Position numbers and translations under genes: made by a program
Origin: a virus
Strand: one strand, 5' to 3'
DNA length: 25,901 bases
IMG/VR virus record: IMGVR_UViG_3300046522_000403
Coordinates: 1-25,901 of that record
Notes under the pieces: model-generated
What the model was told of the DNA's origin: nothing
Databases searched by the model: none
Seen by the model: the letters and a program-made list of their open reading frames with translations, nothing else
Shown here: piece by piece, positions 744 through 9,118 of the stretch
Layout of the letters: every line of letters begins with the position of its first letter
Numbering within the stretch: the first letter of the stretch is position 1

Positions 744-1103
744 ATGAAGGCCAGCAGCCGCAGCGCACGCCACACCATCCGCACCCGCGCTGCCCAGGCC
801 CGCGCAACCCGCCGTGCTCACCAGGCCGTTGCCACCGGAACCCCCCAGAGCGCCCGCACCCACCTTCTCGCCGCCGGCATCGACCAGGCCACCGCCAAGC
901 GCTTCGCCGGCGCCTTCTCCCGTGGCGTCGCCGCCGACGCCACCACCGACACCGTCATCAAGCTCAAGGGACGCCGCCGCAAGACCGTCCCCGCCAAGCT
1001 CTACAGTGCGACCGCGTTCGCCGCCCGTCTCGCGGTGTACCGCCCCAAGGACCTCACCGCCGCGGCCCGCTTCGAGCAGGCCGCCCACCGTCTCGCCGCG
1101 TAA
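744..1103 (+). CDS. Small basic hypothetical protein
   Basis: This 119-residue protein starts MKASSRSARHTIRTRAAQ and is very rich in Arg, Ala and Thr, with a strongly basic N-terminal third and an internal KLKGRRRK cluster. That composition suggests nucleic-acid binding, but no known domain is visible. ATG 744 is preceded by AGGGGG at a 7-base spacing; a longer upstream reading would run through the promoter and is less likely. The stop at 1103 is 10 bases from the PP2C start, so the two genes probably form one transcript driven from the palindromic promoter at 680-711. It has no membrane segment or signal peptide. Function unknown. Confidence 0.75.
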   Translation: MKASSRSARHTIRTRAAQARATRRAHQAVATGTPQSARTHLLAAGIDQATAKRFAGAFSRGVAADATTDTVIKLKGRRRKTVPAKLYSATAFAARLAVYRPKDLTAAARFEQAAHRLAA

Positions 1104-1113
1104 GGGGCCCCTG

Positions 1114-1827
1114 ATGCGTACCCACGCCACCGCACAGCTCATCGGCGACCGCTCCCACCAGTGCGACGCCACCGCCACCTACACCCACAACGGCGTCCGC
1201 TCCTACGTGCTCCTCGACGGCATCGGTTCCACCGACGAGATCCGCGACTGGACCCGCACCGCCGCCCGCCGTCTGGCCCGCTCCGCCGCCGTCCACGCCG
1301 ACGCCGAGGCCGGCTTGCGGGCCGTGTACGCCCGGTACGCGGCCGAGCCCGACCGGCAGGACCCGTTCAACCGTCTGCCGACAGCGTGTGCCGTCGTCGC
1401 CGTCCACGCGCCGGGGAAGCCGCTCACGGTCGCTTGGTGCGGCGACGCCCGCGCCTACGTCCTCACCACCAGCGGCACCATGCTGCGGCTGACCGAGGAC
1501 CACAACCTGCGGCGCGTCTGGCCGCCTCACGGCAACCGCAACCGGATCACGTCGTGGCTGGGTTCGGAGCTGACGGACCAGCAGGTGAAGAGCGAAGTCG
1601 GGCACCCGGCGATCGATACCGCGATCCGGCACCCGGCCGGTGAGCGTCTCCTCCTTGCCTCCGACGGCGCCTACGAGCCGCTCGAGGACAACGGGCTCAC
1701 CCTGTCCGACTACCTCACCGGCACCCCCGCGGAAGCCGCCCGCAGCTTCACCGAGTCCGCCATCGCCTTTGCCGGTGGCTACGCGGACAACGCAACCGTC
1801 CTCGTAGCCGACTTGCCGCACGCATGA
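1114..1827 (+). CDS. PP2C-family serine/threonine phosphatase
   Basis: The 237-residue protein carries the ordered motifs of PPM/PP2C metal-dependent phosphatases: an early conserved Asp (D18 in QCDAT), LLDGIGS (D35-G36), WCGDARAYVL (D111), LTEDHN (128-131), LLLASDGAYEPLED (D184) and ADNATVLV (D225). These acidic residues normally bind two Mn or Mg ions that activate water for phosphoester hydrolysis. The protein is about the size of a bare catalytic domain, with no membrane segment or sensor domain, so it should be cytoplasmic. The start is ATG 1114, close behind the basic-protein gene; a reading frame open further upstream is only a shadow. No partner kinase is in the window. Substrate unknown. 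Confidence 0.9.
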   Translation: MRTHATAQLIGDRSHQCDATATYTHNGVRSYVLLDGIGSTDEIRDWTRTAARRLARSAAVHADAEAGLRAVYARYAAEPDRQDPFNRLPTACAVVAVHAPGKPLTVAWCGDARAYVLTTSGTMLRLTEDHNLRRVWPPHGNRNRITSWLGSELTDQQVKSEVGHPAIDTAIRHPAGERLLLASDGAYEPLEDNGLTLSDYLTGTPAEAARSFTESAIAFAGGYADNATVLVADLPHA

Positions 1828-1862: not shown

Positions 1863-2349
1863 CACACTGATCGCGCACGCGCATCGTAACCCGAGAACTC
1901 CCCATGCAGGTAGATGCGTTGTGGAACTTTCTGGGGGCGTGCCTGCGGGCCCGGCTGGTGGAGAGCGCGGGCCCGCGGCAGGGGCGGGAGCGCAAACTGG
2001 GGGTACTCGCTGCGACCGCCGTCCGGGCACCGTACGTCCCACAGGCCCCACAACGGAACACCTGGGACGTGCGGAATTCCCCTGGCCGGCACGCCGCACA
2101 AGGAGCGGGGGCAACGCGCGGCCGTCCGCGGCATACGGTGCTGGTACCGGCCCCGGCCGCCACCCCCGGCCCCCGGATACCCCATCTGACCTGCACGATT
2201 ACAAAACTTCGGCCCCCACCCTCCAGCCCGCACACGCGCGCCGCCCACCCCGCACATCCCCACGCCCCGCACCACAACCAGCACCAGGGCTGAGGTCCCT
2301 CAGAAGTTTTGTAATCGATCACCGGGGGGTTTTCGGGCAGGATAGGGGC
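1863..2349. other. 487-base non-coding region rich in inverted repeats
   Basis: No convincing gene is present: the open frames here have low-complexity Pro/Arg/His content and no ribosome site. The stretch contains at least three dyads. GCGGGCCCG/CGGGCCCGC has arms at 1945-1953 and 1968-1976. ACGTCCCA/TGGGACGT has arms at 2034-2041 and 2063-2070. The 15-bp pair at 2196-2317 is listed separately. Its position directly upstream of a recombinase-like gene makes it a candidate for recombination, replication or regulatory sites. No direct evidence decides between these. Confidence 0.55.
2196..2317. repeat. 15-bp perfect inverted repeat flanking 92 bases
   Basis: CGATTACAAAACTTC at 2196-2210 is exactly inverted as GAAGTTTTGTAATCG at 2303-2317. 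The arms are AT-rich islands in very GC-rich DNA, and the right arm ends 32 bases before the start of the recombinase-like gene. The 92 bases between them are C-rich and hold no gene. Possible roles are binding or crossover sites for a recombinase, or paired operators; neither is shown. Confidence 0.7.
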
Positions 2350-3213
2350 ATGGACCCCGAGGAACTGCTCACCGACTGGCTCGCCACCAGCGCCCTGCGG
2401 CCCTCCACCCGCGCCGAATACCACCGCGAAGTGAGCAGCTTCCTCACCTGGTGCACCCGCCAGCCCCGGCCCGTCGACCCCATCGCGGCCCGCCCCGCCG
2501 ACATCGCCCAGTGGTCCTACGACACCTACCTCCACGAACTCCTGCCCGGCCGCGCCTTCGACGGACCCGACGCCCTCGGCTACCTCGCCGACCGCCACCC
2601 CGACGCCGCCCGCAGCCACGACCGCCGCATCACCGCCCTCACCGGCTACTACGACGCCGCCACCACCCGACGCATCATCACCATCCCCCCCGACCTGAAA
2701 GTCCTACGCTCCGGCGTCCCCCGCCCACCCGGCGCCAAAAACCGGCTCACCCCCCGCGAACGCGCCGTCCTCCTCGCCTGCACCGGCGCCTGGGGACCCA
2801 CCCGCTCCAAACACTGGGAACGCGACCAGCTCTGCGTCTACCTCCTCCTCGAGGGCCTACGCCCCGCACAGATCGTCCGCATCGACCGCCGCCACCTCTA
2901 CCCCCAGCCCGACGGCTCCTGGGACCTGCGCGCACCCGACGACGCCGAGAACGTCGGCAAAAAGTTCAACCTCGACCCCCTCACCGGCGCAGCATTGAAG
3001 GCCTACCTGGCCGTACGCCCCGAGCCCGCCGACCCCTCCGAGCACGCCCTCATCCTGTCCAGCCGCGGCACCGCCACCTTCTCCCGCTGGCCGAACAAAC
3101 TGATCGGGCAGATCACCGCCACCCACCCGCTGCTGGCCGAACGCGACCCCGCCATCACCGCCGACGCCGTCGCCCACACCGGCCTGTGGGACACCCCCGG
3201 CCAGGGCGACTAG
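2350..3213 (+). CDS. Tyrosine recombinase-like protein lacking key catalytic residues
   Basis: The 287-residue protein looks like a tyrosine recombinase. An N-terminal helical SAM-like DNA-binding region (about 1-105, with RPSTRAEYHREVSSFLTW) is followed by a catalytic-type domain with the Arg I motif LEGLRPAQIVRI (R171) and a beta-hairpin Lys region (K204/K205 in VGKKFNLDPL). Where active enzymes have T-P-H-x-L-R-H-T, it reads TADAVAHT (270-277), so the box II His and Arg are Asp and Ala. It ends ten residues later, before the region that would carry the His/Trp and the nucleophilic Tyr. Codon use is normal up to the stop, so this is not an obvious frameshift. ATG 2350 follows AGGA at a 7-base spacing. 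It is probably catalytically inactive and may act as a DNA-binding accessory protein. Confidence 0.75.
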   Translation: MDPEELLTDWLATSALRPSTRAEYHREVSSFLTWCTRQPRPVDPIAARPADIAQWSYDTYLHELLPGRAFDGPDALGYLADRHPDAARSHDRRITALTGYYDAATTRRIITIPPDLKVLRSGVPRPPGAKNRLTPRERAVLLACTGAWGPTRSKHWERDQLCVYLLLEGLRPAQIVRIDRRHLYPQPDGSWDLRAPDDAENVGKKFNLDPLTGAALKAYLAVRPEPADPSEHALILSSRGTATFSRWPNKLIGQITATHPLLAERDPAITADAVAHTGLWDTPGQGD

Positions 3214-4310
3214 GGACGCGTCGTGAAGCGGTCAACGAGGCGGTCGTACACGGCCACGGCGGCCGCCGCGTGCTGCCGGCGCCGCGCGCTGGAGTCCCGC
3301 CGGCGGATGTAGCGCAGCGTCGTCTCGATCGCGGCGTGGTCGGCGTACTCCTGGATCTCCTCAACGGGCGTACGCGCGTCGTGCATGTGGGTCAGCTTGG
3401 AGGCGCGCAGCACGTGCGGCGTAAGGTCTCTGCCCGGTAGGACGCCTGCCTGCTTGCCGAGTCGGGTGAGGAGCCGGTCGATGGCGTGCCGGTCCATGGG
3501 CTTGTCGTCGTCGTCCAGGAGCAGCGGCCCGTCGGTGCGGTCGGTGGTGGCGACGTCGATCAGGTCGCACAGCCGTTCCGGTAGGGGCCACACGCGCCCC
3601 TTGCCGCCCTTCCTGCGCAGGTCCAGGGTGCGTTCCCCGTTCGTCTCCTTCAGGTGGTGCAGCTGCGCGATGACGGCTTCGGAGACGCGTCCGGCCAGTG
3701 TGTACAGCAGGACCGGGGCGAGGGCCTGCCGGGCGGTGCCGGCGGCGTTCACCACCGCCTGGAACTCGGGGACTTCAAGGATCGGCGTGGCGGTCGTCTC
3801 GTCACGGGGATCGACCTTGGGCCGGTCGTGCTTGGTCACCGGGGAGAAGAGGGTCTGGTCCTTGGTCTTCCACCGGGCGTACTCGGACAGGGCGGTCAGC
3901 ACGGACAGACGCCGGTTGATGGTGCGAGGCGCCTTGCCCTGTGCTTTCTGGGTTTTGGTCCAGGTCTCGATGATGCCGGGGGTGATGGCGCCGACGAACA
4001 GGCGCTCGTGTCCGCCGAGTTCGCGTGCTACCTGGGCCCACAAGCGGAGGTCGTCGGCGTAGGCCTGCTTGGAGGTGATGGCGGGGACGGCTTCGGAGCC
4101 GAGCCAGGAGGTGACGAGGAGGAAGGTGTCGCGGTCCAGGAGCTCGGCGAGGATCTCGAGCCGGTAGCGGCGCTCGCCGAGGCGTCGGTTGACGGGGTCG
4201 CGGGGTGCGACGGTGCCGAGGACGTCGCGGAGCCAGAACAGGGCCTCTTGCGCGGCGCCCGGGCGTTCCAGTTCCGCGCGCGGTCTGGCGGTGACGGTCT
4301 GGTCGGTCAC
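3210..4310 (-). CDS. int: Tyrosine recombinase / phage integrase
   Basis: This 366-residue protein has the full catalytic set of tyrosine recombinases: R208 in TLAGRVSEA, a beta-hairpin Lys (K234 or K237 in RRKGGKGRVWPL), H299 and R302 in TPHVLRASK, H325 in DHAAIETT and nucleophile Y334 in TLRY. The N-terminal half contains a core-binding helical domain (about 55-160). It should integrate and excise the phage genome, although the attachment site is not identified. The start is taken as GTG 4310, whose GTGA overlaps the stop of the upstream small gene; an ATG at 4361 lies inside that gene and is less likely. The C-terminus is basic (IRRRDSSARRR). Its stop codon overlaps that of the opposing recombinase-like gene in a shared CTAG (3210-3213). 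Confidence 0.92.
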   Translation of the reverse strand: MTDQTVTARPRAELERPGAAQEALFWLRDVLGTVAPRDPVNRRLGERRYRLEILAELLDRDTFLLVTSWLGSEAVPAITSKQAYADDLRLWAQVARELGGHERLFVGAITPGIIETWTKTQKAQGKAPRTINRRLSVLTALSEYARWKTKDQTLFSPVTKHDRPKVDPRDETTATPILEVPEFQAVVNAAGTARQALAPVLLYTLAGRVSEAVIAQLHHLKETNGERTLDLRRKGGKGRVWPLPERLCDLIDVATTDRTDGPLLLDDDDKPMDRHAIDRLLTRLGKQAGVLPGRDLTPHVLRASKLTHMHDARTPVEEIQEYADHAAIETTLRYIRRRDSSARRRQHAAAAVAVYDRLVDRFTTRP

Positions 4311-4579
4311 GACTGCAGTTCCATCTTCACGGCTGGGGTGATGCGGAACCGGTGCGCGCACGGCTCGAAGGTTACGAGGTCGTCGGGCAGGCCTTCACTG
4401 TGCCGGATCGCGTTGGGTCGGTCTGCGCAGTCGGGGCAGGGCGGAAGAGGCGGGTAGTCCGGGACCTGCAGCACGTTGGTGTCGATCTCATGCTCGCGTC
4501 TGCGCAGTTCTTCCCGCAGCCACCACAGCGTCTCTGCGTTGATTTCGGAAGCGCTGTTCTGTTCGCGTTGGTCCGTCAT
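4307..4579 (-). CDS. Small Cys/His protein coupled to the integrase
   Basis: This 90-residue protein starts MTDQREQNSASEINAETL. It has a charged helical N-terminal half and a C-terminal half with CPDC (49-52) and a later Cys-x-His (EPCAHRF), which may form a zinc site. I recognise no family. Its stop overlaps the integrase start by GTGA, so the two are translationally coupled. That position is compatible with a directionality factor or a regulator, but this is inference from location only. There is no clear ribosome site before ATG 4579. TAGGCT lies six bases upstream, so a leaderless start from a -10 box is possible, although a good -35 box is not evident. Confidence 0.65.
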   Translation of the reverse strand: MTDQREQNSASEINAETLWWLREELRRREHEIDTNVLQVPDYPPLPPCPDCADRPNAIRHSEGLPDDLVTFEPCAHRFRITPAVKMELQS

Positions 4580-7104: not shown

Positions 7105-8412
7105 TCATGGGCCCACCGCAACCCACGGCCCGGCGAAGTCCGTCCCGATGTTCGACGCGGGAGTGATCGACGCAGGCAGTGCCGTCCGGCCGGTCCCGTT
7201 CTTCGCGAACCGGTACGCCGCCACAGCCAGGCCCATGTTCGCGGCCGTGTCGACACCGGTCCAGCCGGAACCGCGGGTCAACGTCGGCGTGACCGACGCG
7301 TTGAACAGCATCGCAACCCAGTAGAACGATCCGGCCGACAGCGCCGTGGCCGGGATAGGGGTGGCCTTCAGCGTGGCCGAGGAGAACGACGTGTCCACGT
7401 TCGCGGACGCCAGGAGCGTGCCGCTGGAGTTGTACAGGCCAGCCCAGTTCTGGTTGGTGACGGCCGATGACCCGGTGTTCGCCACCCACCAGTAGAGTTT
7501 CGTGACGTTGATGGCCGCAGCAATGTCGACCCGGGTCAGGTACAGAGTCCCGCCGGTCAACTGGGTGGAGTTCACGGCCAGAGCCGGGTCGTAGCACCAG
7601 GCGGCGGCCCCATGGACGGCTGGCGTGTCGGTGCCGTCAGCGCCTGACGGCCCCTGAGGCCCAGTCGCGCCGGTCGCTCCTGCCGGGCCTGTTGCCCCGG
7701 TGTCACCCTTCGGCCCCTGAGTTCCGGTGGCGCCTGTTGAGCCTGCGGCTCCCTGGGGGCCGGGATCCCCTTGCGCTCCGGTGTCGCCCTTGGGTCCTTG
7801 GGTGCCGGCTGCTCCGGTGGGTCCTTGCGGGCCCTGGTCTCCGGTGTCCCCCTTGGGGCCCTGCGCGCCTGTTGGTCCGGCCGGCCCGGTGGCCCCGGTG
7901 GCGCCGGTGGGTCCCTGCGCTCCGGGATCACCGGTGTCGCCTTTCGGTCCCTGTGCTCCGGTGGCTCCTGCCGGTCCCGTTGGTCCGGTCGCTCCCGCAG
8001 GTCCGGGATCGCCCTGCGGGCCAGGGGGGCCAGACTGCCCCGTGCCGAGGTAGACGACGGTTCCCTGTCCGGTCTGGGTGCTGGACAAGTCCGCACGGAT
8101 CGACCCCACCCAGTACGAGCCGGTCTCCGGGACGACGATGTAAGTGACGATCGGTGAGCCGTCGCGGGCGCGCCCCTCTTGGATGGCCCACAGGGTGTCG
8201 CCCGACTGCGACTCGATGAGCGTGTTGGCGGTCAGCGTGACCGTCCATACCCCGTCGCTGGCCGCCTGGATGGGGACGTCCTTGACCAGCTCGCCCGACA
8301 CAGAGGCGACGTAGCCGACTGCGGGCTGCCCCGTCACGTCGACCAGGGTCGCTTTCATCTCCACCCGCTGCGGAGCGGCCGCGCCGATCAGCTTGCCGGT
8401 CACCGTGGTCAT
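7105..8412 (-). CDS. Collagen-like tail fibre / putative receptor-binding protein
   Basis: This 435-residue protein has three parts. Residues 1-125 form a beta-rich N-terminal domain ([31 protein letters not shown]), likely the attachment to the tail or a spacer. Residues 128-260 are about 44 uninterrupted Gly-X-Y triplets in which the eight-residue unit QGPKGDTG recurs four times, so a collagen-like triple helix is expected. Residues 265-435 form a globular C-terminal domain rich in Trp, Tyr and Thr, which in phage fibres usually trimerises and binds the host surface. ATG 8412 is preceded by AGGAGA. It lies among the lysis genes, downstream of a second collagen-like gene with a membrane anchor. 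Confidence 0.8.
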
Positions 8413-8422
8413 CTGGCTTCTC

Positions 8423-9118
8423 CTAGCTGCGGCGGGAAAGCAGGTTCAGCGGGAGCAGGCCTGACGAACTGTCGCTCGGGGAGGGCTGCTGGCTGGGACT
8501 GGGGGATGGAGACGAAGTCGGTTCCGGGTTGGCGGTGCTGGTCTGCGTGCACCGGTAGCGCGGGTTGTCCGGGTCGAAGCCGTCGACGGGGACGCACCGG
8601 TACTCGTTGCCGTACTGATCGGTGTACGTCCACTCCGACGGCGGCGCACCGTTTTGGCCGTTCGTACCGTCTTTCCCGTTCGTTCCGGCGGCGCCGTCGG
8701 CCCCGTTCTGGCCGGCCGGGCCGGTGGGCCCGGGCACGGTGGAGTCCGCCCCCTTAACTCCCGCGGGGCCGACAGGACCGGACGGGCCGGGGCTGGGGGT
8801 GATGGTCGGCGCGTCCTTGCCCGCCGCGCCGGAGGGGCCGGGAGGCCCGGACGGACCCGGTGCGCCGACCGTTGCCTTGCCAGGCTCGCCGCGGGATCCG
8901 GGAGGCCCAGCCACCGGCTTCTCCCCCAGCGACTGAACCTGGCGGGCCAGCGCATCACGGGCGTCATTGGAGGTACGCAGGTCCCGATCCTGAGACACGA
9001 CCTTGACGGACAGCCACCCCAGCAGCAGCACGACGAACACCAGGGTGACCGCGATCAGATACTCCGCGCGCGGCAGCTTGATGGTGCGGCGCGGCGGCTT
9101 GTGCTTTCCCTCAGTCAC
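8423..9118 (-). CDS. Membrane-anchored collagen-like protein
   Basis: The 231-residue protein has a short basic cytoplasmic N-terminus (1-20, [11 protein letters not shown]) and one membrane segment (about 21-41, [18 protein letters not shown]). A short helical or coiled-coil stretch (43-66) follows, then a discontinuous Gly-X-Y region (about 71-158, with [10 protein letters not shown] and [10 protein letters not shown]). The C-terminal domain has two Cys (C175, C190) that could form a disulfide, and a Ser/Pro tail. By the positive-inside rule the collagen-like part should lie outside the membrane. GTG 9118 overlaps the stop of the XhlA-like gene as GTGA, so both are made together. It could be a spanin-like or anti-lysis component, or a surface protein; no such function is established. 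Confidence 0.75.

Follow-up and report, generated by a model that had tools for sequence, protein, structure and literature searches.

The plus-strand gene described here encodes a real, constrained protein of the tyrosine recombinase fold that is non-catalytic, and because a fold of this kind has been kept under constraint, a DNA-binding role is likely. The gene lies in a 25.9-kb virus record, which we analyzed at its full length (25,901 nt; hereafter, the window). We hold at about even confidence that the protein binds its own paired half-sites without catalysis, most likely as an autoregulator. The window has phage structural genes in common with ~90-kb Streptomyces plasmids and is syntenic with them, and homologues of its tape-measure gene were found on 48 plasmids, mostly Streptomyces plasmids of 84–94 kb, including pSLE1, pSAM1, and pCQ3. 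It resembles pZL12 and pSLE1 in gene content and synteny, and pSLE1 carries an orthologue of the plus gene; pSLE1 is itself highly homologous and syntenic to pZL12 (PMC4487206). Judging from its sequence, the window is part of a ~90-kb Streptomyces phage-plasmid of the pZL12/pSLE1 type. A search of eight plasmids for the portal family PF04860 also missed true phage-plasmids and was uninformative.

The plus-strand protein has the two-domain fold and Arg I in common with Xer, Cre, and lambda Int; this arginine (R171) is invariant among 24 aligned homologues. Unlike those enzymes, it has D272 and A275 in place of the His and Arg of box II (HxxR), its last Tyr is residue 219 at the latest, and its C-terminus lies 12 residues past box II. 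Box II His/Arg, the second His/Trp, and the nucleophilic Tyr are missing family-wide (DxxA, then an early end). The sequence agrees with the sequence-only reading, which had described R171 as kept, Asp and Ala in box II, and a stop before any Tyr region. Against Pfam, the protein gave a weak N-terminal SAM-like match alone (E = 0.087). Its homology to tyrosine recombinases is nevertheless secure, because the family profile matched XerA (E = 3e-4) and XerH (E = 8e-4), and the predicted structure (mean pLDDT 86.6, built from 22 sequences) was matched by Foldseek to XerA, Cre, XerH, and lambda Int with a probability of 1.00. Profile and Foldseek matches place it in the superfamily with both the core-binding domain and the catalytic-domain fold.

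Table 1. Features of the dead-recombinase locus in the window (strand "." = none assigned).
Feature	Position	Strand	Basis or remark
Inverted repeat, left arm, CGATTACAAAACTTC	2196..2210	+	Sequence; co-varies with right arm across the family
Spacer between arms, 92 bp	2211..2302	.	Never inverted in 10 compared pairs
Inverted repeat, right arm, GAAGTTTTGTAATCG on +	2303..2317	-	Co-varies with left arm; adjoins putative -35
Putative promoter, TCGATC, 17 bp, CAGGAT	2315..2343	+	Conservation in alignments
Dead, C-terminally truncated tyrosine-recombinase-fold protein	2350..3213	+	ATG 2350 to TAG 3213, 287 aa
Palindrome CTAG, source of both stop codons	3210..3213	.	Sequence
Intact tyrosine integrase, 366 aa from GTG 4310	3210..4310	-	R208, H299, R302, H325, Y334
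90-aa ORF overlapping integrase start (GTGA)	4307..4579	-	Sequence; no Pfam or PHROG match

We investigated the distribution of this family. Thirteen plasmid homologues with near-full coverage (47–77% identity) were found on ~90-kb plasmids, weaker ones (27–35% identity) mostly on larger plasmids, and further ones on 19 viral contigs and 13 genome contigs; L004 holds the gene most similar to that of the window (94%). In a profile search, 35 of 393 Streptomyces genomes had a match. Searches for homologues with degenerate patterns miss divergent members, and a scan of genome contigs with the single protein, like one of phage records, yielded no homologue. A literature search found no paper on such dead recombinases. 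All complete close homologues (about 282–295 aa) have the same Asp and the same early end, and nearly all have the same Ala, with a box II of TADxxAHT except in L062 (TADTLSHT). The same residues and end point were retained down to about 50% identity and recurred in plasmid relatives of ~30% identity. More distant members have DVVAHS, DAVTHS, or DFIAATP in box II and likewise a stop codon soon after. Whether the missing residues are always missing was a check proposed with the sequence-only reading: they are in every complete close homologue, and the distant relatives agree. The dN/dS values of ten homologue pairs (0.14–0.62) indicate purifying selection.

The missing catalytic residues and C-terminus would also be expected of a merely broken integrase gene, but the chance of this is negligible given the same residues and end in the complete close homologues and ~30%-identical relatives, together with the purifying selection. 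Moreover, intact recombinases appeared only among the weakest profile matches (about 1e-13 to 1e-15, over the N-terminal part; L135 and L139), where they form an outgroup. The family-wide identical loss, common end, and purifying selection likewise contradict the earlier description of the protein as a decayed recombinase. A pseudogene produced by phage integration into a host gene was rejected, as the gene is borne by phage-plasmids and the same end is conserved. The family cannot catalyse by the known mechanism and should bind half-sites of the recombinase type but leave them uncut.

Upstream of the plus gene lies a perfect 15-bp inverted repeat that the sequence-only reading had missed, and its arm sequence occurs nowhere else within the window. 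Inverted repeats of at least 9 bp with a spacer of 60–130 bp were present in 40 of the 41 distinct homologue upstream regions, compared with 3.6% of 4100 dinucleotide-preserving shuffles, and for repeats of 12 bp or more the figures were 31 of 41 and 0.02%; the lone exception to the 9-bp criterion is the close homologue L063, whose upstream region is rearranged. Among 32 close loci, the arm-to-arm distance was 98–102 bp, and these loci were chosen by a core pattern, which favours agreement between arms: in 97–100% of loci the left arm equalled the right at eight core positions, several of which are themselves variable from locus to locus, and arms of the same locus agreed at 87%, compared with 65% for arms of other loci. 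When 20 sequences were aligned without the core pattern, changes on both sides were seen at 8 of the 12 arm pairs. The repeat is conserved beside the plus gene, and the adjoining promoter is putative. With up to 3 mismatches allowed, each of the plasmids pSAM1, pSLE1, and p1431 contains exactly two copies of the arm.

Distant plasmid homologues (~30% identity) also have perfect long-spaced repeats of 14–20 bp, with unrelated arm sequences (15 bp in L028, 20 in L029, 14 in L030, 18 in L031 and L032, 14 in L127, and 17 in L137). Several other distant homologues, among them L120, L121, L123, and L131, had no obvious upstream repeat. L120 and L121 hold two similar homologues in Streptomyces genomes, one of them near 9.98 Mb of a large contig, and are possibly chromosomal copies with a changed role. 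An invertible switch was rejected because the spacers had the same orientation in all ten related pairs, and a genome-wide regulon, such as that of a phage immunity repressor with many operators, is unsupported, as in the plasmids checked the arms are found beside the gene only. A search with a looser arm pattern was uninformative against its control.

Autoregulation is suggested by the combination of an inactive clamp, two inverted half-sites, a putative −35 region at the right arm, and a −10-like element near the ATG. The dead protein keeps the two-domain DNA clamp of a recombinase without its catalytic residues, and its half-sites would be the two repeat arms upstream of its own ATG, each about as long as one lox-like half-site. 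Protomers on the two arms may interact across the ~100-bp spacer in a loop or bridge, and the bridged arms would control the gene's own promoter, with its putative −35 region directly next to the right arm. This promoter is probably leaderless: the putative element ends 6 bp before the ATG, which is compatible with a leaderless transcript. Gene and repeat would then form a self-contained control module for plasmid upkeep. The fold, family-wide catalytic loss, early end, co-varying arms, near-fixed spacing, single occurrence of the site in each plasmid checked, and independence from the integrase were computed, and we infer that the dead protein oligomerises, that the arms are what it binds, and that its own promoter is under its control.

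Some observations do not fit such an autoregulator well. The range of spacings, 98–102 bp, spans about 0.4 helical turn, so that no single helix face is fixed, several distant homologues lack an obvious repeat, the upstream region of L063 is rearranged, and no target was found away from the gene in the plasmids checked. A pure autoregulator with no target outside its own gene would be odd, so the module would have to do something more. Tentatively, and with less confidence than we give to DNA binding at the arms, the dead recombinase and its half-sites ~100 bp apart may constitute a new type of control element of Streptomyces plasmids, a switch for replication, copy number, or segregation. A recombination synapse would here have become a nucleoprotein bridge that is permanent and does not cut.

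The repeat might instead act as RNA, with a promoter upstream of the left arm yielding a long-stemmed leader or small RNA. In most relatives, a TAGCGT-like promoter element (window, about 2110–2150) is conserved ahead of the left arm; transcription from it would run across the entire repeat. All of the leaders fold strongly. However, consensus folding of 20 leaders gave the 12-bp arm stem only, and an RNA element was set aside for its lack of conserved inner structure; the half-site-like arm length and the DNA-binding fold are better explained by protein binding, which makes the RNA reading highly improbable.

The plus gene meets an integrase gene tail to tail, and the set of catalytic residues ascribed to the latter is complete when numbered from its GTG (Table 1). 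The 90-aa ORF at the integrase start had no Pfam or PHROG match and is probably on the same transcript. In all 12 close plasmid relatives with annotation, the opposite strand downstream carries a recombinase gene, as a rule that of a tyrosine recombinase, either next to the plus gene or separated from it by a few genes; intervening genes are frequent. The plus protein could accordingly be an accessory or directionality factor of the adjacent integrase, be it excisionase-like, a competitor, or an architectural helper. Nevertheless, the integrases beside the plus ORF in 13 phage-plasmids fall into at least six sequence groups, with many pairs less than 30% identical: window/L020/L022; L017/L018/L026; L004/L025/L027; L019/L023 (with pZL12); L016 (with pCQ3 and L037); and L021. 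L024 has a serine recombinase alone in this slot. L004, despite holding the closest relative of the plus gene, has an integrase from a different group than that of the window, and the L016 integrase, which has the plus ORF beside it, is 88% identical to that of L037, where a protein of a different family takes that place.

Divergence of the plus ORF and of the integrase was uncorrelated (r = −0.147, p = 0.93, n = 13). Furthermore, W14 and W15 carry a dead homologue and had no other Phage_integrase match (in W15, the dead protein itself matches), and the repeat adjoins the dead gene, with no copy near the integrase. Neither the linkage to one integrase nor the co-evolution with it that mark a directionality factor was found. 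Read from these sequences, the position downstream of the plus ORF is an exchange slot, and the integrase appears to be a neighbour rather than a dedicated partner of the dead protein, because the slot swaps, divergence is uncorrelated, and the dead protein occurs without it. An exclusive integrase partner is ruled out on the same grounds, and an accessory role of any kind for this integrase is very unlikely. Of the helper, competitor, or direction switch proposed in the sequence-only reading, DNA binding survives as likely, whereas the tie to the adjacent integrase does not; the expected co-occurrence holds for a downstream recombinase in general, but the integrase group varies, and in W14 and W15 no integrase match beyond the dead protein was found. 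Both stop codons do fall within one CTAG, which is one of the few possible 4-bp overlaps of convergent stop codons. The tight pairing read from it is nothing special to these two genes, as the shared CTAG recurs beside an unrelated integrase in L004 and a 59%-identical one in L022.

Another reading takes gene and repeat as a plasmid replicon, with the dead recombinase as initiator and the repeat as origin, possibly a second one beside RepA. It is consistent with a stand-alone gene-plus-site module kept on plasmids of very different content, and with the occupancy of the locus: pZL12 lacks a plus-type protein, and in pZL12-type phage-plasmids the same locus holds pZL12.34c instead, recorded as similar to pFP1.11. 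About 32 phage-plasmids have the tape-measure gene in common; the plus ORF was found in 10 of them, the recombinase-related 34c in 20, and the two together in none (hypergeometric P about 1e-6). The pZL12.34c/pFP1.11 family is also recombinase-related (profile against XerA, E = 1.5e-4) and its sequence stops or becomes degenerate beyond a box II of the EQLRRS type, but it has no convincing direct homology to the plus family (hhalign probability 15%); two of its four members have an HTH-containing insert, and no long-spaced repeat lies alongside. In pZL12.34c (L033:23490-24629) and pFP1 (L035:3368-4624), the degenerate box II reads MEQxRRS, sometimes with a LacI-like HTH inserted, and in L037 the 34c-type gene overlaps the integrase gene by 4 bp.

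Against a replicon, several of the same phage-plasmids carry the 515-aa pZL12.82, similar to pFP1.15c, and the cumulative GC-skew maximum lies about 1–3 kb from its homologue, far from the plus ORF, in 5 of the 5 fully read plasmids having the homologue, although this argument is indirect and transcription can distort skew. No direct iterons were found beside the plus ORF. We infer that pZL12.82 (L038:18632-20179), a RepA-like candidate, corresponds to the proven RepA. The window is a fragment of a larger element, whose own RepA and partition genes may lie beyond its reach. With a RepA-like gene at the skew peak, the case for a sole replication initiator is weaker, and we regard a replicon as rather unlikely.

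A role in DNA processing is quite improbable. Here, the dead protein would mark the repeat, perhaps as a cruciform, for an EndoVII-type junction endonuclease, with dimer or concatemer resolution or nicking as possible outcomes. In NZ_CP109498.1, a homologue (L031:5001-6377) is preceded by an 18-bp inverted repeat and continues at its C-terminal end into a fused EndoVII domain (PF02945, E = 1e-5), and separate EndoVII genes lie near the locus in L021, pZL12, and pCQ3. However, only this single fusion was seen, EndoVII genes are common in phages, and none was identified adjoining the window gene.

Co-option of the recombinase fold for a plasmid function has a likeness in MobK, TcpM, and MpsA, which are tyrosine-recombinase-like relaxases. 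These still have the catalytic pentad and Tyr but no core-binding domain, whereas the plus-protein family is the reverse (PMC8152469). If the plus protein does act as a DNA binder on its arms, a recombinase fold would be under selection purely as a site-specific binder of its own paired sites, across Streptomyces phage-plasmids and large plasmids, in a gene-plus-repeat module that is small and testable in the usual laboratory strains of Streptomyces. The family also corrects a recurrent misannotation, in which its dead members carry the label "site-specific integrase", as on pSLE1; such labels were used to suggest plasmid integration. Two putative integrases were counted on pSLE1, and integration was suggested (PMC4487206); one of these two is very likely the dead protein.

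Next to parA, inverted repeats of the palindrome GTATACCGCGGTATAC were observed in pSAM1 (44453), pSLE1 (32560), and pPsv (39587; record coordinates) and are possible parS sites. In the window, two neighbouring collagen-repeat genes lie on the minus strand (7105–9118), the first of which matches phage tail-fibre families. A PP2C-type phosphatase gene (window 814–1827) lies upstream of the dead-recombinase module; it is present in L004 and L016, is unannotated in several relatives, and is probably exchangeable cargo.
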